In this document: in pieces, positions 4,568-49,482 of the stretch
Layout: every line of letters starts with the position of its first letter
How positions within the stretch are numbered: position 1 is the stretch's first letter
Origin: an uncultured Acidobacteriota bacterium
GTDB lineage: Bacteria; Acidobacteriota; Vicinamibacteria; Fen-336
Direction of reading: 5' to 3'
DNA length: 64,000 nucleotides
Assembly (NCBI GenBank): GCA_902826455.1
Contig: CADEEV010000019.1
Location: forward strand, 1-64,000
Notes under the pieces: model-generated
What the model was told of the DNA's origin: nothing
Databases searched by the model: none
What the model saw: only the letters and a program-made list of their open reading frames with translations
Translations under genes and position numbers: made by a program

Positions 4568-6477
<1,910 letters not shown>

Positions 6478-6484
6478 GGTGTCG

Positions 6485-7189
6485 TTACCTCGGGAGGACC
6501 TGGGCGGCCTGGGGGCGCGCCGGCGCCTCGTCGATGATCCCGGCCAGCACGGCCACGGGCATCGAGATGTTGCCGATCACGACCACGGCGGCGACGAGCG
6601 TCGCGGCGCCATGGCGCAGCGCGTTGTAGCGCGGATGGCTGAGGCCCAGGGTCTGCAGCATGCTCCACACGCCGTGGTACAGGTGCAGCCCGAGCAGCAG
6701 CATCGCGAGGATGTAGAAGGCCGAGACGATCGGCACCTTAAAGCCCACGATGAAGTTGTGGTAGACGTCGCCCGGGACGAAGTCGGGGTGCACGCTGCCG
6801 ATCGTGAAGTGCAGCAGGTGATAGACGATGAAGGCCAGCAGGATGACGCCGCTCCAGCGCATGGTGCGCGAGGCGTAGGTGGACTCGTTCCACTGCTGCT
6901 TGCGATACCCCTGGGGCCGCGCGGCGCGGTTCTGCAGGGTGAGCGAGGTGGCCGACCAGATGTGGAGCGCCGCGGCCGCGAGCAGGCCGCCACGGGCGAT
7001 CCAGATGCCGGTGCCGTGGAGCACCAGGCGCAGGTTCTCGCCGTACTCGTTGATCGGCCCGGGGCCCAGGTAGACCTGCAGGTTGCCGATCATGTGGGCG
7101 ATCACGAAGCCGAAGAGCATCAGGCCCGTCACCGCCATGATGATCTTCCTGCCGATCGTGGACCGGAACAGACCTAGGACCGCGTTCAT
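6485..7189 (-). CDS. sdhC: Succinate dehydrogenase cytochrome b subunit, type B
   Basis: A 234-residue membrane anchor with about five transmembrane helices. Histidines suited to bind two b hemes occur in [28 protein letters not shown] and [10 protein letters not shown] single large anchor, with no SdhD, is the hallmark of type-B succinate:quinone reductases, often coupled to menaquinone; the quinone used here is inference. ATG at 7189 follows a GAGAGG ribosome site. It is the first gene of sdhCAB. Confidence 0.92.
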
Positions 7190-7237
7190 CGCTGCCTCTC
7201 GGATGGGGGTGTCGCCGGCGAGCGCGCCAGCAGCGGA

Positions 7238-7266
7238 AATCTACTCATTTCCCGAAGCCTCCGCAA
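7238..7266 (-). promoter_or_regulatory. Putative sdhCAB promoter
   Basis: On the minus strand TTGCGG (7261-7266) and TAGATT (7238-7243) are 17 bases apart, and transcription would begin about 40 bases before the sdhC ATG. The -10 box covers the stop codon of the upstream lipase-like gene, so the sdh operon may also be read through from it. Confidence 0.45.
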
Positions 7267-8626
7267 GAGTCGGATAGCGCACCGTCGCGGGCCTCAGCAG
7301 CGTCCGCAGCAGGATGCTCTGGAACGTCGGCTCGCGATAGATGCCGTGGTGGTCGGCGCTGCCGAAGACGATGCGCGACACCTCGGGGATGCCGCAGCCG
7401 GGCTCGTCCGCGTCGGCGTCGGGAAGGTGGGACGCGAGGACGCTCGCGCGGGTGACGCGGCCGTCGCCGGCCTCGAGCAGGAACTCCGACTCGTCGCGGG
7501 TCCAGGCCTCGAAGCGCGGCGCGACGCCGGGTCCCGCGACGATCGCGCGCGCCGGCGTCGCGAGACAATCGCCGCCCACGAGCAGCACGCGCGCGGGACA
7601 GCGCTCGAGGGCGGGCTGGGCGAGCGCGTCCTGGAACGCGCGGGCGCGGGCCAGGGCGGCGCTGAGGAACGCCTTCTCGGACTCGGGATCGGCCGGCCGC
7701 GGCTCCTCGCCGCGGCGCCGCCGCGTGCTGGCGGCCCACGGCCCCCAGCCGAGGGTCTCCCAGGTCGAGAGGTCGCGCACGTCGAGGGGAACGGGCGCGC
7801 CCGTGCCGTCGACGAGCGGGTGCGCCTCGGGCGCCGGCAGCAGCTGGTAGAGCGACGGCATGTGGGCGACGACCGAGGGCGCCAGGGTCGTGGACGAGAG
7901 TCCCACCCGGTTGCCGTTGAGCAGCGCGTCCAGGGCCGGGCTGCTGCCGCCGTTCGGCGGCGCCACGAGCACCAGGTTCTCGATCCTCCGCGCGCCGGCC
8001 CAGGTCACCGGGCCGCCGGGCTCGGCGCCGCCGTAGCGCAGGTAGTAACGCGCCACGAGGCCGCCCATGCTGTGCCCCACGACGTTGAAGCGGGCGGCCG
8101 GGTTGCCGCTCGCCTCCGTCAGGCGCTCGAGGGCCTCCCCGAGGCGGCGGGCCGACTCCACCAGGTCGCGCCGCCAGTCGTAGGTGAAGACGTGCTTCGT
8201 CGCGCCGTGGCCGTTCGTGCCGAAGCCGGCGTCGCCCAGGAGCTCGAGGAAGTCCGCGTACTCGGTGAAGCCGAACATGCGGGGGAGCGCCGCGTCCACG
8301 CCGAGCAGGCCGGCCGGCACGAGCTCGTCGCGGCTCTCCGAGAGCGGCAGGACCGCCGGCAGGCCCAGGTCGTAGGCGCCGACCGTCGTGCGCAGGTTGA
8401 GCCAGACCTGCGTGCCGTCGGGACGCACGAGCTCGCTGCCGAGGATCCCAGGGATCAGGATCGTGGGCGGCGTGCCCGGCGCGTCCCGCGGCAGGCCGCG
8501 CCGGAGCAGGCGCGCGTCGAGACCCGGCCGGGGCTTCAGGGCGTGGGCGAGCAGCAGCCCCGCCATGCCGGTGAGCACGCCCGCCGCGAAGGGCGCCCAG
8601 GAGCCCGGCCGCGCCTCGTCTTCCAT
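7241..8626 (-). CDS. Alpha/beta hydrolase, LCAT-like lipase/acyltransferase
   Basis: A 461-residue serine hydrolase. After an N-terminal membrane segment (WAPFAAGVLTGMAGLLLAHAL) comes the early-strand motif TILIPGILGSELV, then the nucleophile elbow GHSMGGLVARYYLR near residue 180, as in the lecithin:cholesterol acyltransferase family (PF02450). An aspartate and a histidine (SADHHG near the C-terminus) could complete the triad. Likely membrane-anchored and facing the periplasm, acting on lipid or ester substrates; the substrate is unknown. The frame stays open upstream, but ATG 8626 is chosen because the membrane segment follows it directly and the longer frame would overlap the divergent peptidase gene. 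Confidence 0.8.
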   Translation of the reverse strand: MEDEARPGSWAPFAAGVLTGMAGLLLAHALKPRPGLDARLLRRGLPRDAPGTPPTILIPGILGSELVRPDGTQVWLNLRTTVGAYDLGLPAVLPLSESRDELVPAGLLGVDAALPRMFGFTEYADFLELLGDAGFGTNGHGATKHVFTYDWRRDLVESARRLGEALERLTEASGNPAARFNVVGHSMGGLVARYYLRYGGAEPGGPVTWAGARRIENLVLVAPPNGGSSPALDALLNGNRVGLSSTTLAPSVVAHMPSLYQLLPAPEAHPLVDGTGAPVPLDVRDLSTWETLGWGPWAASTRRRRGEEPRPADPESEKAFLSAALARARAFQDALAQPALERCPARVLLVGGDCLATPARAIVAGPGVAPRFEAWTRDESEFLLEAGDGRVTRASVLASHLPDADADEPGCGIPEVSRIVFGSADHHGIYREPTFQSILLRTLLRPATVRYPTLAEASGNE

Positions 8627-44467: not shown

Positions 44468-45058
44468 CTAGCGCGGCAGCCAGGGCCGCACGTCGACGAC
44501 ATGCATGCCGGCGGTGCGCGCGGACTGCAGGCCCGCCTCGCCGTCCTCGAACGCGACGCAGGCGGTCGGCGGCACGCCGATGCGCGCGGCCGCGATGAGG
44601 AAAACGTCAGGGGCCGGCTTCGGAGGGCACAGGCCGCGCGAGCTCACGACCGCGTCGAACCAGTCCTCGACGCCGATGGCGCGCAGGGACGCTCGGGCCG
44701 ACGGTTCGGTGCTACCCGTGGCGACGGCCATCGGCAGAACGCCGCGGTGGTTCCGCGCGATCTCGATGACGGCCGGCACTCCCCGCAGGTCGCTCTCGGG
44801 AAGGCTGTGGAAGAGCGCGTCGCGCTCGGTCGCGACCGCAGCGGCATCGACCTCTCGCCCTTGCTCCTGCGCCAGCCTGCGGACGATCTCGTCGGTCGGC
44901 ACGCCGGCCCATGCGTAGAACAGCGGCTCCGGGAACCGAATGCCGTGGTGGTTCAAGGCCTCGACCCACACCTTGTAGTGAAGGGGCATCGAGTCGACCA
45001 GCGTGCCGTCGCAGTCGAACACGAGGCCGCGGCATCCGGCCGGCGGGGTCCAGGTCAT
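44468..45058 (-). CDS. HAD-family hydrolase (beta-phosphoglucomutase-like)
   Basis: A 196-residue cytosolic phosphatase. Motif I is FDCDGTLVDS (D15, D17), a cap domain follows, motif II is ATGSTE, the Lys is in PPKPAPDVF and motif III is FEDGEAGLQSA. The group includes sugar-phosphate phosphatases and phosphomutases. Its ATG overlaps the stop of the upstream gene (TGATG). It is the last gene of the minus-strand run. Confidence 0.9.
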   Translation of the reverse strand: MTWTPPAGCRGLVFDCDGTLVDSMPLHYKVWVEALNHHGIRFPEPLFYAWAGVPTDEIVRRLAQEQGREVDAAAVATERDALFHSLPESDLRGVPAVIEIARNHRGVLPMAVATGSTEPSARASLRAIGVEDWFDAVVSSRGLCPPKPAPDVFLIAAARIGVPPTACVAFEDGEAGLQSARTAGMHVVDVRPWLPR

Positions 45059-45549
45059 CAGATGTCGGCCGGCTTGAGGAGGAAGACGGCGTCTTGCGGT
45101 CGCGCATGACCCGTGAGCGGCTCGAAGGCACCGTCAGGCCGACGCGAGAGGAACAGGAGATACGTCGAGTGGGGCTGGAGCTCGAGGTAGGCGCCGCCGT
45201 TGACGATGCCGAGAGGCGGTTCCCCCGGATGCTTGGGTTGCTGGGCGCGCTGCACGTCGAGCCGGTAGTGGAGCAACTCGAACGTGGAGTCTGACAAAAG
45301 TGCGTTGGAGCCTCCCTTGAGGACGGACTGCACACGGAAGGTGCTTCGCATCTCGAAGACAGGCAGGAACGGCTTGAGGTCCGGATGTGCGGTCGTGCGG
45401 CCCGTGTCGACCACCCTCTCGCATTCGGCGATCACGACGACGTCGGCCTTGTCGCGGAGCTGGTCGAAGCTCCAGATGGTGCCGACCTGTGCCTGTGCCA
45501 ACGTCGGCGCGATGAGAGTCGCGAGCAAAGCCAACGCTCGGCGTTTCAT
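45058..45549 (-). CDS. Small secreted protein of unknown function
   Basis: A 163-residue protein with a clear signal peptide (RALALLATLIAPTLAQAQ). The mature part starts IWSFDQLRDKADVVVIAECERVV and contains LQPHSTYLLFLSRRPDG, a pattern I associate with small NTR/OB-like extracytoplasmic proteins. No catalytic or metal motif is visible. It starts 21 bases after the tiny ORF at 45571-45663. Confidence 0.6.
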   Translation of the reverse strand: MKRRALALLATLIAPTLAQAQVGTIWSFDQLRDKADVVVIAECERVVDTGRTTAHPDLKPFLPVFEMRSTFRVQSVLKGGSNALLSDSTFELLHYRLDVQRAQQPKHPGEPPLGIVNGGAYLELQPHSTYLLFLSRRPDGAFEPLTGHARPQDAVFLLKPADI

Positions 45550-45570: not shown

Positions 45571-45663
45571 CTAGCCCTGGACCTGCACGGTGATGACGCC
45601 GCCACGCTCGACCGATAGCGGTACGCCAAGCCAGGACAGCGCGACGACTAGCCAGCGCTTCAT
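45571..45663 (-). CDS. 30-residue ORF overlapping the Cys-rich gene stop
   Basis: ATG at 45663 overlaps the TGA of the cysteine-repeat gene as ATGA. The peptide begins MKRWLVVALSWLGVPL, a hydrophobic stretch long enough to enter a membrane, and ends after VITVQVQG. The ATGA overlap matches how other genes in this run are joined, which is the main reason to list it. It could equally be the remnant of a longer gene. Two CTA codons are unusual for the region. Confidence 0.35.
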   Translation of the reverse strand: MKRWLVVALSWLGVPLSVERGGVITVQVQG

Positions 45664-46061
45664 GGCTTCGTCTCCTTCGGCTTCGACTTCTCGCGGGCCT
45701 TGGCGTGCTCGATCTTGAGAGGGACTTCGCAGCCGCCCTTGCCCTTGCAGCTGTTCTTGCCGGCGCAGCCGTTGTCGCCCGAGGCGCAACCGCCGATCGC
45801 CTTGCAGTCGTTCTTCCCGGCACAGCCGTGGTGGGCGGCCTCGGCGGCGCAGCCGCCCTTGCCCTTGCAGTCGTTCTTGCCCGCGCAGCCGTGGCCACTG
45901 CAGCCATGCTTGCAGTTGCCGCGACCCTTGCACTCGTTGAGGCCCTTGCAGAGGTGCTTGTCGACCGTCGCAGGCTCGTCGGCGAAGGCAGGCAGGCGCG
46001 TTCCGGCCATCAGCCCAGCGACGGCAGCGGTCATGAGGACACCGGCATCGCGGCGCTTCAT
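45660..46061 (-). CDS. Secreted cysteine-rich repeat protein (13 Cys)
   Basis: A 133-residue protein: a signal peptide (MTAAVAGLMAGTRLPAFA), then from residue ~30 a run of 13 cysteines in short units such as CAGKNDCKGKGGC, CAGKNDCKAIGGC and CAGKNSCKGKGGC, and a Lys/Glu-rich tail. The pattern recalls copper-buffering Cys-rich peptides (bufferin/HvfA-like RiPP precursors), but the modifying enzyme (DUF692/MNIO) is not in the window. Possible roles are metal binding or a structural surface protein. ATGA overlaps join it to genes on both sides. Confidence 0.7.
   Translation of the reverse strand: MKRRDAGVLMTAAVAGLMAGTRLPAFADEPATVDKHLCKGLNECKGRGNCKHGCSGHGCAGKNDCKGKGGCAAEAAHHGCAGKNDCKAIGGCASGDNGCAGKNSCKGKGGCEVPLKIEHAKAREKSKPKETKP
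45736..45893 (-). repeat. Imperfect tandem repeat inside the Cys-rich gene
   Basis: Three copies of a unit encoding GCAGKN(D/S)CK and GGC, separated by short Ala- or Gly-rich spacers. The repeat length varies (about 54-60 bases) and all copies stay in frame, so it expanded as coding sequence. Confidence 0.7.
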
Positions 46062-46612
46062 GGGCGCCCCGGAGTGGCCAGCGATGCCACGCCCATGAGC
46101 GCACGCAGGTCGTCGCGCACGACTCCGTCGACCGGATGGAGGTGCGTGCCTGTGCCGTCCACCCGGTACTGCGTTCCGTACCGCTGCGGCCGACCCAGCT
46201 TCACGAGGAAGCGGTCCTCGGCCGCGGCGGCAAGCGACGCGCTCGCCACGTCGTTCTTCCCGAGGCGCATCGCGGCGACGCAGAACTCGTGGGCCAGCAG
46301 ATAGTCGTCGGCAGTCTCCCCGTGCTGGAGGATCAACGCGGCTCGGTAGAAGTCGGTGCCGGTGCGGATGGCGCCACCCGAGTAGAGCGCCTTGACCCTG
46401 GCGAGCCGAAGGCGATCTCGAGGCGTGACGACGCTCCAATCGATCGTCGCTGGTTGACGATCGCGCTGGTCCGCGTCGGCGAGGGTCAGGAGCTCAGAGT
46501 TATCGGGGCCAGCCTCTTGAGCCCACACGGGAGCGTAGCGGGCTCCCAGCGCCACGAGAGTCACGAGTCCGAGCGACATCAGCGACATGCCCATCGTCGC
46601 CCTGGAGTTCAT
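46058..46612 (-). CDS. Secreted protein of unknown function, DUF6624-like
   Basis: A 184-residue protein with a signal peptide (MSLGLVTLVALGARYAPVWAQ). Conserved-looking blocks are LADADQRDRQ, DRLRLARVKALYSGGAIRTGTDFYRAALILQHG, DYLLAHEFCVAAMRLG and EDRFLVKLGRPQRYGTQ. I recall this pattern from small uncharacterised proteins near DUF6624; function unknown. ATG 46612 overlaps the stop of the DUF1801 gene and its own stop overlaps the Cys-rich start. An ATG at 46594 is an alternative start. Confidence 0.65.
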   Translation of the reverse strand: MNSRATMGMSLMSLGLVTLVALGARYAPVWAQEAGPDNSELLTLADADQRDRQPATIDWSVVTPRDRLRLARVKALYSGGAIRTGTDFYRAALILQHGETADDYLLAHEFCVAAMRLGKNDVASASLAAAAEDRFLVKLGRPQRYGTQYRVDGTGTHLHPVDGVVRDDLRALMGVASLATPGRP

Positions 46613-46971
46613 GCCTTGCGTTCGGCGTTCTCGGCGATACGCGTCTTCACCAGCTTCTTCACGAGGGTCACGGGCAGCGGTGCATCGGGCTGGAAGCGGA
46701 TCGTCCCCTTGCTCGTGCTGTAGCGCGCGATCAGCGCCTTGTGCTTCGCGAGGGTCGTGCCGCTCAGGACGTAGAACGCGCAGTGGTTCGTGGTCGCGCC
46801 GTAGCCGACCAGCATTCCGTTCAGGTGGAAGATCGGGATGCCGTAGCTGATGCGTTCCTCGGCCTTGGGGGCGACGGCCTTGATGGTGCGGCGCAGGCTC
46901 TGCAGCGCCTTGCGGTGCGCCGGCGGGAGGGCGTCGAAGTACTCGGGGATGGTCTTCGCCTTCACCCTCAT
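46609..46971 (-). CDS. DUF1801/YdhG-like protein
   Basis: A 120-residue cytosolic protein beginning KTIPEYFDALPPAHRKALQSLRRTIKAVAPKAEERISYGIPIFH and containing FYVLSGTTLAKHKALIARYSTSKGTIRF, diagnostic of the DUF1801 family with a frataxin-like fold. B. subtilis Fra (YdhG) is an iron chaperone; whether this one binds iron is unproven. Linked by four-base overlaps to the small membrane protein before it and the secreted protein after it. Confidence 0.88.
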   Translation of the reverse strand: MRVKAKTIPEYFDALPPAHRKALQSLRRTIKAVAPKAEERISYGIPIFHLNGMLVGYGATTNHCAFYVLSGTTLAKHKALIARYSTSKGTIRFQPDAPLPVTLVKKLVKTRIAENAERKA

Positions 46972-47150
46972 CGTCGAGAGGATACGCCTGGATCAGGCCC
47001 CAGGCCCAGCGTCAGTTGTTTCCGGCGCCGACGCAGCCACCAGAAGATCAGAGGGATCAGAGGCAGCGCGGTGACGAGCATGAACAGGGCCGCCGCCGCC
47101 AGGATGGAACCTGTGGGGTCCCCACAGTCACTGCAGATGTCGAACTGCAT
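46968..47150 (-). CDS. Small single-span membrane protein (60 residues)
   Basis: Residues 1-12 hold two Cys close together (DICSDCGDPTG), followed by one membrane helix (AAAALFMLVTALPLIPLIFWWL), a basic stretch RRRRK and a short tail, so the C-terminus should be cytoplasmic and the two Cys outside. GGGAG precedes ATG 47150, and its stop overlaps the DUF1801 start (ATGA). It is the probable first gene of the operon that includes the Cys-rich protein. Confidence 0.6.
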   Translation of the reverse strand: MQFDICSDCGDPTGSILAAAALFMLVTALPLIPLIFWWLRRRRKQLTLGLGPDPGVSSRR

Positions 47151-47197: not shown

Positions 47198-47893
47198 CTA
47201 CCGCGCCTTGAGCTCGAACGTGGCCTGGACGCCGTAGTTCAGGAACTCGCTGCCCGCCTCGATCGGAGCCGAGAACATCGCCTTGTTGAAAGCGAGGGTG
47301 TTCATGGGACCGGGCTGCATGCCGTAGCTCTCGCTCACGCAGATCGCGTCCCCGACCTTGGCGCCCGCTGCGCTGGCGAGCGTCTCGGCCTTGGACCGCG
47401 CGTCCTGGAACGCGAGCTCGAGGCCTCGGGCCTGATTCTTGGAGGTATCGGCCACCGAGAAGGAGAGGCCGCCCGCGTTGTTGGCGCCGGCCTCGACTGC
47501 CGCCTGCAGGAGCTGGCCGACCGACTCCGTGTCGTTGCGCGTGACGGTGACCTGGTTCGAGACGCGGTACGCCACGGTCTTGCGCCCGTCGTCGCTCAGG
47601 ACGGGCTGCACGTCGAGGTTCGAGGTCTGGATCTCCTTGGACGAGGCGCCCTTCGACTTCAGGGCGGAGATCACGGCCTGCACCCGAGCGGCGTTCGACG
47701 CGAACGCCTGGGCCACGGCCGGGGCTTCCGTCGACACGCCGACGGTGAAGGTCGCCCGGTCCGGTGTCGCACGGATCTGGGCGGAGCCGGAGACCTGGAC
47801 GCGGCGGCCGGTGCTGGAGGCGCAAGGGTCGATCTGGGCGTGTGCGACGGACGCGAAGGCGCTGACGGCGAGGACGACGAAGGCGAGTCTCAT
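47198..47893 (-). CDS. SIMPL-domain (DUF541) periplasmic protein
   Basis: A 231-residue protein with a signal peptide (LAFVVLAVSAFASVAHAQ). The body matches SIMPL proteins: VSGSAQIRATPDRATFTVGV, IQTSNLDVQPVLSDDGRKTVAYRVSNQVTV, GLSFSVADTSKNQARGLELAFQDARSKAE. Relatives are 26-kDa periplasmic immunogenic proteins implicated in oxidative-stress tolerance. Its ATG overlaps the stop of the M28 gene. Confidence 0.88.
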   Translation of the reverse strand: MRLAFVVLAVSAFASVAHAQIDPCASSTGRRVQVSGSAQIRATPDRATFTVGVSTEAPAVAQAFASNAARVQAVISALKSKGASSKEIQTSNLDVQPVLSDDGRKTVAYRVSNQVTVTRNDTESVGQLLQAAVEAGANNAGGLSFSVADTSKNQARGLELAFQDARSKAETLASAAGAKVGDAICVSESYGMQPGPMNTLAFNKAMFSAPIEAGSEFLNYGVQATFELKAR

Positions 47894-49482
47894 TTCTTGG
47901 CTCCAAAGGTTTTCCCGAAGAAGTCGCCGTCGTTCCAGGTCGGCCGGGCGTCGCCCTGGGCCGTGAAGTACCCGAGCAGAAACGCGTAGCGCGCGGCCTT
48001 GGCACCGGCGTTCCAGTCGAGGGGCTGGTTGAAGTCGTCGTTCGGCAGGTGATAGCGCAAGCGATAGCGGTCGGCGCGGAGCTGGGCCCCGTCGAGCTTC
48101 GGGTCGACGGCCTTGGTGCCGATCATCGGGAACAGGGCGGGGATGCCGCGGCGCACGAACGAGTAGTGGTCGCTGCGGATGAAGAACATCTGTTCCGGTG
48201 TGGGGTCGGGCGTGACCTCCACGCCCAGGCGCGCCGCGGCGCGCGTCACGGCGCTGCCCATGGTCGAGTGGTCGCCGCCGATGTCGATCACGTTCTTGAA
48301 CTCGAACAGCAGGTTGGTGCCGTCCATGTTGACGTTCGCGACCATGCGCTCGCGGGGCACGGTGGGGTACTCGACGAAGTAGTCGGAGCCCAGCAGGCCC
48401 TTCTCTTCGCCGGCGACGCCGATGAACAGCAGCGAGCGCCGCGGTGGCTTCGGGAGGCTCGCGAAGGCCCGCGCCACCTCGATCAGGGCCGCGACGCTGC
48501 CGGCGTTGTCGGTGGCCCCGTTGTAGATCGCGTCGCCGTTCACGGGCTCGCCGACGCCGAGGTGGTCGACGTGGGCCGTGTACACGACGATCTCGTCGCG
48601 GAGCTTCGGGTCGGACCCCGGAAGTCGCGCGATCACGTTCGAGCTCGTGACGTCCGAGTGGGTCGACTCGATGCGCGACACGAGGCTCACGGGTAGCGCG
48701 GCCGCCTGGTCCGGCGCGGCACCGCCGAGCAGCTTCCGGCTGCCGGCCTCGCTCAGCACGGCCACGATGCGGATGTCGGTCTTGCGTCCGTTCGGGAAGC
48801 CGTCGCGGTCGAGCCAGGCCATGGAGGGCTGCGTGGCCTGGCGCAGGGCCCGGGCGAAGGGCGAGATCTGCTCGGTCGCGGCCTCGCGCAGGTGGAGGGC
48901 GGCGACGGCGCCTCGGGCCGCCGCCTCGTCGAGCTTCAGGCGGGTGCTGCTGTAGTGGCCCCGCTCGGCCGTGGGCAGCGTATTCGGCGCGCCGGTGATG
49001 AACGCGACGACCTTGCCGCGCACGTCGATGCCCTTGTAGTCGTCGATGCCGAAGTCCGGCGCCACGATGCCGTGGCGGACGAACACGATGGGGGCGTTCA
49101 CCGTGGACGCGGCCTCGCGCACGTCGCCCACCGCGTAGTAGTCCGTGCCCCAGGTCAGCGTCTCGTCGCCGTTGGGCCCGCTGATCCGTACGGAGCTGCG
49201 GTCCGGGACGATCACGGCGCTGCGATAGCGCACGGGCTGGAAGAAGCCGTCGACGCCCGCGGGCTCGAGGCCGAGGGCCTCGAAGCGGCCGGCCAGGTAC
49301 TGCGCGGCGAGGTCGTAGCCGCGTGTTCCGGTGCCGCGGCCCTCGAGCAGGTCGTCGGCCAGGAGCCGCACGTGGGCACGGATCGCCTCGGGCCGGATCG
49401 TCCGTGCGGCCGCGTCTTCGGGGCGCGCGGTCGTGGTGGTTGCCGCCGCGAGCGCGAGCGAGAAGGCCAGGGCTGGGATCAT
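47890..49482 (-). CDS. Secreted M28-family zinc peptidase with PA domain (second copy)
   Basis: A 530-residue paralogue of the gene at 8694. The signal peptide is ALAFSLALAAATTTTA. Motifs: VYTAHVDHLG, NGATDNAGS, GEEKGLLGSDYFVEYP, NVNMDGTNL and RSDHYSFVRRGIPALF give the M28 metal and catalytic residues. A PA domain lies at ~130-270. A predicted extracytoplasmic aminopeptidase. Nine bases separate it from the cysteine synthase gene upstream. Confidence 0.9.
   Translation of the reverse strand: MIPALAFSLALAAATTTTARPEDAAARTIRPEAIRAHVRLLADDLLEGRGTGTRGYDLAAQYLAGRFEALGLEPAGVDGFFQPVRYRSAVIVPDRSSVRISGPNGDETLTWGTDYYAVGDVREAASTVNAPIVFVRHGIVAPDFGIDDYKGIDVRGKVVAFITGAPNTLPTAERGHYSSTRLKLDEAAARGAVAALHLREAATEQISPFARALRQATQPSMAWLDRDGFPNGRKTDIRIVAVLSEAGSRKLLGGAAPDQAAALPVSLVSRIESTHSDVTSSNVIARLPGSDPKLRDEIVVYTAHVDHLGVGEPVNGDAIYNGATDNAGSVAALIEVARAFASLPKPPRRSLLFIGVAGEEKGLLGSDYFVEYPTVPRERMVANVNMDGTNLLFEFKNVIDIGGDHSTMGSAVTRAAARLGVEVTPDPTPEQMFFIRSDHYSFVRRGIPALFPMIGTKAVDPKLDGAQLRADRYRLRYHLPNDDFNQPLDWNAGAKAARYAFLLGYFTAQGDARPTWNDGDFFGKTFGAKK

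Follow-up and report, generated by a model that had tools for sequence, protein, structure and literature searches.

The captophorins comprise the bufferins and other thiooxazole metallophores, and BufA2 belongs to the Cys-Lys type (PMC13097082). The residue beside the catalytic Asp, a guide to MNIO substrate specificity in PMC13097082, was set aside here because its numbering does not transfer safely to the sequences analysed. Among Buf2 (Buf_6/12Cys) precursors, sizeable shares of the genes have no associated MNIO gene, yet none of 864 Buf2-bearing genomes lacks an MNIO (PMC12452194). That study does not decide between modification of stand-alone precursors in trans and no modification, nor whether one BufBC enzyme pair modifies several precursors.

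The window considered here, the whole stretch of 64,000 nucleotides that was analysed, derives from an uncultured Acidobacteriota bacterium related to Vicinamibacteria and carries a gene for a Cys-repeat protein that can be compared with these systems. In common with Bufferin-2/BufA2 (Buf_6/12Cys, NF050166) the product has a signal peptide, four units providing 12 Cys, CK motifs and homology to MNIO-linked precursors. It differs in that the gene lies away from bufB and bufC, and in having an extra Cys, a sub-cut-off score and a diverged leader. The precursor lies apart from any MNIO gene, with MNIO encoded elsewhere in the genome, as for the stand-alone Buf2 genes already reported in PMC12452194, and the gene is a further case of that published kind, although it sits, with ATGA overlaps, among unrelated small genes. 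The protein is Cys-rich and likely metal-binding, as are metallothionein-like proteins. Unlike metallothioneins it is secreted, and its repeats are homologous instead to RiPP precursors.

The gene run

Five minus-strand ORFs of 60, 120, 184, 133 and 30 aa run from 47150 down to 45571, each consecutive pair overlapping by four bases, ATGA, to give four overlaps. The ORF coordinates and the Cys count thus bear out the description in an earlier, sequence-only reading of five ATGA-joined genes, one encoding a secreted protein with 13 Cys. The run and its flanking genes are as follows.

47890-49482, minus strand: M28 peptidase gene, upstream of the run, overlapping the SIMPL gene
47198-47893, minus strand: SIMPL gene, upstream of the run, overlapping the M28 peptidase gene
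46968-47150, minus strand: 60-aa single-pass membrane protein with N-terminal CSDC (sub-threshold CcmD-like match)
46609-46971, minus strand: DUF1801 (YdhG-like) protein, 120 aa (PF08818, E 6e-17)
46058-46612, minus strand: secreted 184-aa protein, weakly DUF6624-like (PF20329, sub-threshold)
45660-46061, minus strand: stand-alone bufferin-2 (BufA2-type) precursor, 133 aa, 13 Cys (NF050166 match)
45571-45663, minus strand: 30-aa hydrophobic peptide without detectable family
45058-45549, minus strand: gene for a secreted 163-aa protein, downstream of the run, overlapping the HAD gene
44468-45058, minus strand: HAD hydrolase gene, downstream of the run, overlapping the 163-aa gene

The five-gene limits are arbitrary: the flanking M28 peptidase, SIMPL, 163-aa and HAD genes share the strand of the run and are separated from it by short gaps. 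Values of GC3 from 0.72 to 0.93 across all five ORFs are consistent with coding, the signal being least clear for the 60-aa ORF (0.72). The 60-, 184-, 133- and 30-aa proteins have no Pfam match above cut-off. The DUF1801 assignment of the 120-aa protein holds and it is a genuine member of that family, with BH2032 and YdhG as PDB matches. An iron-chaperone role has been proposed for a Bacillus homologue of YdhG; we found no evidence of a link between the 120-aa protein and bufferins. The DUF6624-like label given to the 184-aa protein survives as a sub-threshold resemblance (E 0.021) but fails as a family assignment, with 14.8 bits against a gathering cut-off of 27. The 60-aa protein has no convincing homologue in 20 relatives, and its ORF represents a lineage-specific or doubtful gene. 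The ORF for the 30-aa hydrophobic peptide is likewise a doubtful gene.

Identity of the Cys-repeat protein

The sole NCBIfam match of the 133-aa protein is to NF050166 (E 2.9e-12, 46.6 bits), the model for BufA2 of the periplasmic bufferin-type metallophores. The score is under the equivalog cut-off of 60 bits, as is that of an MNIO-linked precursor from a relative (58.8 bits). Four CxGxNxCKxxGxC units contribute 12 Cys, to which one extra Cys is added; the family copies have four units too, as does the one that this genome carries on contig C1. One CKG is altered to CKA and one GGC to GNC. Inspection of the sequence and an alignment with 15 relatives identify a signal peptide, MKRRDAGVLMTAAVAGLMAGTRLPAFA, with a basic n-region, a hydrophobic core and an AFA site, the features of an export signal. 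Identity to MNIO-linked copies is about 48-69%, and 61% to the C1 copy. On sequence grounds the protein is a homologue of the bufferin-2 (BufA2/Buf_6-12Cys) RiPP precursors, and the likeness of its Cys units to metal-buffering RiPP precursors, noticed before any database search, reflects real homology, as the NF050166 match and the 61% identity to the C1 BufA2 indicate. The canonical bufABC context is absent at this gene; downstream are the 30-aa ORF and the 163-aa gene, without an MNIO signature.

Bufferin genes elsewhere in the genome

Neither an MNIO nor a BufC gene was found within the window. The claim that no MNIO/DUF692 enzyme is present is thus correct for the window and wrong for the genome, where the search proposed as a check returned three MNIO genes, on contigs C1, C56 and C13. 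On C1 a bufA2 gene (L028:5939-6304) is directly followed by genes for an MNIO (BufB) and then a DUF2063 protein (BufC), the MNIO scoring 341 bits against NF050167 BufB (cut-off 310). Besides this close paralogue on C1, a whole-genome search identified two BufA2-type genes on C56 that are more distant.

The C56 locus (L045:5823-8030) consists of a second MNIO-DUF2063 pair and then two tandem BufA2-type precursor genes, an enzyme-first order unlike the published bufABC. The third MNIO, on C13 (L046, approximately 6700-7400), is divergent and a Buf2 precursor was not detected nearby.

Comparison with other genomes

Among 100 genomes, the window's own included, homologues of the Cys-repeat protein occur in 14 others, all of the same family or order. 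Thirteen of these have a copy with MNIO and DUF2063 genes after it. The only copy detected in the 14th (G009, same family, 78% complete) is truncated at the contig start, and its 3.9 kb of downstream sequence contain no MNIO; an MNIO fragment lies on another contig. This is probably a further stand-alone bufA2, but outside the context seen in the window. The ORFs downstream of it (L044:1-4105) are methyltransferase-like, ArsR/rhodanese-like and MFS-like, names that were read by eye. Two order-level genomes possess a stand-alone copy besides the cluster copy, and these two form a well-supported pair in the tree.

A wider scan of genome contigs gave 80 homologous loci in other genomes, mostly Acidobacteriota, Planctomycetota and Pseudomonadota, a sample that partly overlaps the family and order relatives. 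An MNIO gene is beside bufA2 in 68 of the 80, directly downstream in all but one of them. No MNIO was detected at the other 12; some loci of the sample are short, and a few of these 12 may be contig-end effects. When genomes with stand-alone copies were searched, 10 of 11 had an MNIO elsewhere, the exception being a Kuenenia-labelled MAG.

The idea that stand-alone Buf2 genes share a conserved context was considered and rejected. Their neighbours vary (an RND efflux pump, an FAD oxidoreductase, a LOG/lysine-decarboxylase-like gene at three loci, an ECF sigma factor) with no common partner. At L123:2859-6396 the Buf2 gene comes directly after, and shares the strand of, the RND (AcrB-type) efflux pump gene. 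At L140, L141 and L145 (approximately 5000-6500) Buf2-type genes are directly downstream of the LOG/lysine-decarboxylase-like gene, and two of these three loci are labelled Eremiobacterota.

The neighbours of the Cys-repeat gene do not travel with it. Homologues of the DUF1801, DUF6624-like, 60-aa, 30-aa, SIMPL, M28 and 163-aa proteins are absent from all 80 bufA2 loci, and the DUF1801 and SIMPL homologues of the relatives are on contigs other than that of bufA2. Searches of family and order relatives gave no homologue of the DUF6624-like 184-aa protein. Across 396 genomes sampled in the phylum, 18 besides the window's own encode one (best 51% identity), and at nine such loci checked no bufA2 is near. 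Co-occurrence in relatives had been named as the test of the five genes as a set, and it was found nowhere, neither in the relatives nor at the 80 loci, and a conserved five-gene metal module was rejected on this ground. The proposal of an unmodified metal-binding or metal-handling set is unsupported, given this result and the complete bufA2-bufB-bufC on C1. The "operon" is largely an ordinary, lineage-specific gene run whose other members are not conserved with the Cys-repeat protein.

Signal peptides

The signals of Buf2 are described as Sec in PMC12452194, where the question of how premature export is avoided is raised and Tat is not mentioned in the main text. We examined 84 distinct Buf2 N-termini, including those of L069-L148 and of the C1 copy. 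RRxF is present within the first 14 residues of 41 (shuffled mean 0.7), an approximate count, since the simple assignment of start codons used here leans towards M..RR, and 32 of the 84 match RRxFx[KRQH]. The RRxF(xK) signal on about half of the sampled precursors resembles the twin-arginine signature, and this genome encodes TatC. In the window copy the RR of RRxF is retained but the F is not. Many Planctomycetota copies carry lipoprotein-like signals instead.

A second motif, [AVST]G[LMIVF]xxG, is located in the hydrophobic region of 57 of 76 Buf2 signal peptides (shuffled mean 2.6) across signal types, and corresponds to residues 15-20 of the 133-aa protein. It is a candidate recognition motif for BufBC; preliminary evidence makes the signal peptide part of BufBC recognition in Buf1 (PMC12452194).

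Evolution of the stand-alone copy

Comparison of the window and C1 copies gives a dN/dS of about 0.43 with dN 0.33, where dS is a rough estimate for such short, repetitive and GC-rich sequences. Canonical copies from other genera of the family differ less from the C1 copy, with dN 0.14-0.22. The window and C1 copies diverge at other positions, but all 12 unit Cys of the window copy align with Cys of the C1 copy. Judging by these estimates the window copy is still under purifying selection but evolving faster than the canonical copies. In a maximum-likelihood tree it occupies a long branch and is not beside the C1 copy. The tree does not show the window copy as a recent duplicate of the C1 copy, yet an AU test does not reject grouping the two (p 0.09). 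The window copy may be a stand-alone paralogue or a horizontally acquired copy.

Is the precursor modified?

The reading that we favour, and consider likely, is of a stand-alone bufferin precursor that would be modified in trans by BufBC of C1, exported, and act to buffer copper. The precursor would be made in the cytoplasm and its signal-peptide or leader region recognised by the BufB (MNIO)-BufC (DUF2063) pair of C1. By analogy with published bufferins, the source of what we infer here about modification, binding of copper and buffering in the periplasm, CK-type cysteines would be converted to thiooxazole-type groups and the product, once in the periplasm, would sequester excess copper alongside the C1 bufferin. 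What was observed directly is the homology, the repeats, the signal peptide, the enzyme pair and the non-conserved neighbours. In favour of maturation in trans are the cognate BufBC pair in the genome, the retention of all four units, the identity to the C1 BufA2 and an intact AGLMAG, the motif of most Buf2 signal peptides. Against it, the leader diverges (RRDAGV compared to a local consensus of RRxFxK), MNIO and BufC are missing from the window, the NF050166 score is sub-cut-off, and there are the altered repeats, the extra Cys, the high dN and the placement in the tree.

Several of these same points suit the main rival, that a bufferin-derived precursor is no longer modified and acts in the periplasm as an ordinary Cys-rich protein that buffers metals or thiols. 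The absence of a linked MNIO, the RRDAGV leader, the altered repeats and the faster evolution relative to canonical copies would all be accommodated, and PMC12452194 explicitly allows for unmodified stand-alone precursors. We nevertheless judge it unlikely in a genome that encodes a cognate BufBC, for a protein that has kept its 12 unit Cys and most CK motifs, and with Buf2 genomes devoid of MNIO essentially absent (0 of 864 in the published survey, 1 of 11 here).

A lineage-specific position, the lack of conserved context and the long tree branch could also mark a non-functional duplicate or acquired copy that is drifting and has no present role. This is very unlikely, as the ORF and signal peptide are intact, all unit Cys are present, dN/dS is below 1 and the gene has ATGA overlaps with both neighbours. 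That the five genes constitute a functional metal-handling module, with a frataxin-fold chaperone and a secreted Cys protein, is hardly credible: the four ATGA overlaps suggest coupled translation and DUF1801 is related to YdhG, but the genes co-occur neither in any relative nor at any of the 80 loci, the DUF1801 family is broad, and relatives have their DUF1801 or SIMPL genes away from bufA2.

Implications

The locus illustrates how a RiPP precursor can pass for an unmodified metal binder when the maturase sits on another contig. With two buf-type clusters and one stand-alone precursor, this genome offers a convenient case in which to ask if one BufBC can serve several precursors. A broader proposal, speculative and on balance rather improbable, is that stand-alone Buf2 proteins form a second, MNIO-unlinked bufferin class with its own role in Acidobacteriota, possibly unmodified or differently exported, and that many Buf2 precursors exit by the twin-arginine pathway after modification. 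The twin-arginine-like signals offer a testable answer to how Sec export ahead of modification is avoided, and this side observation could prove more valuable than the stand-alone precursor itself.
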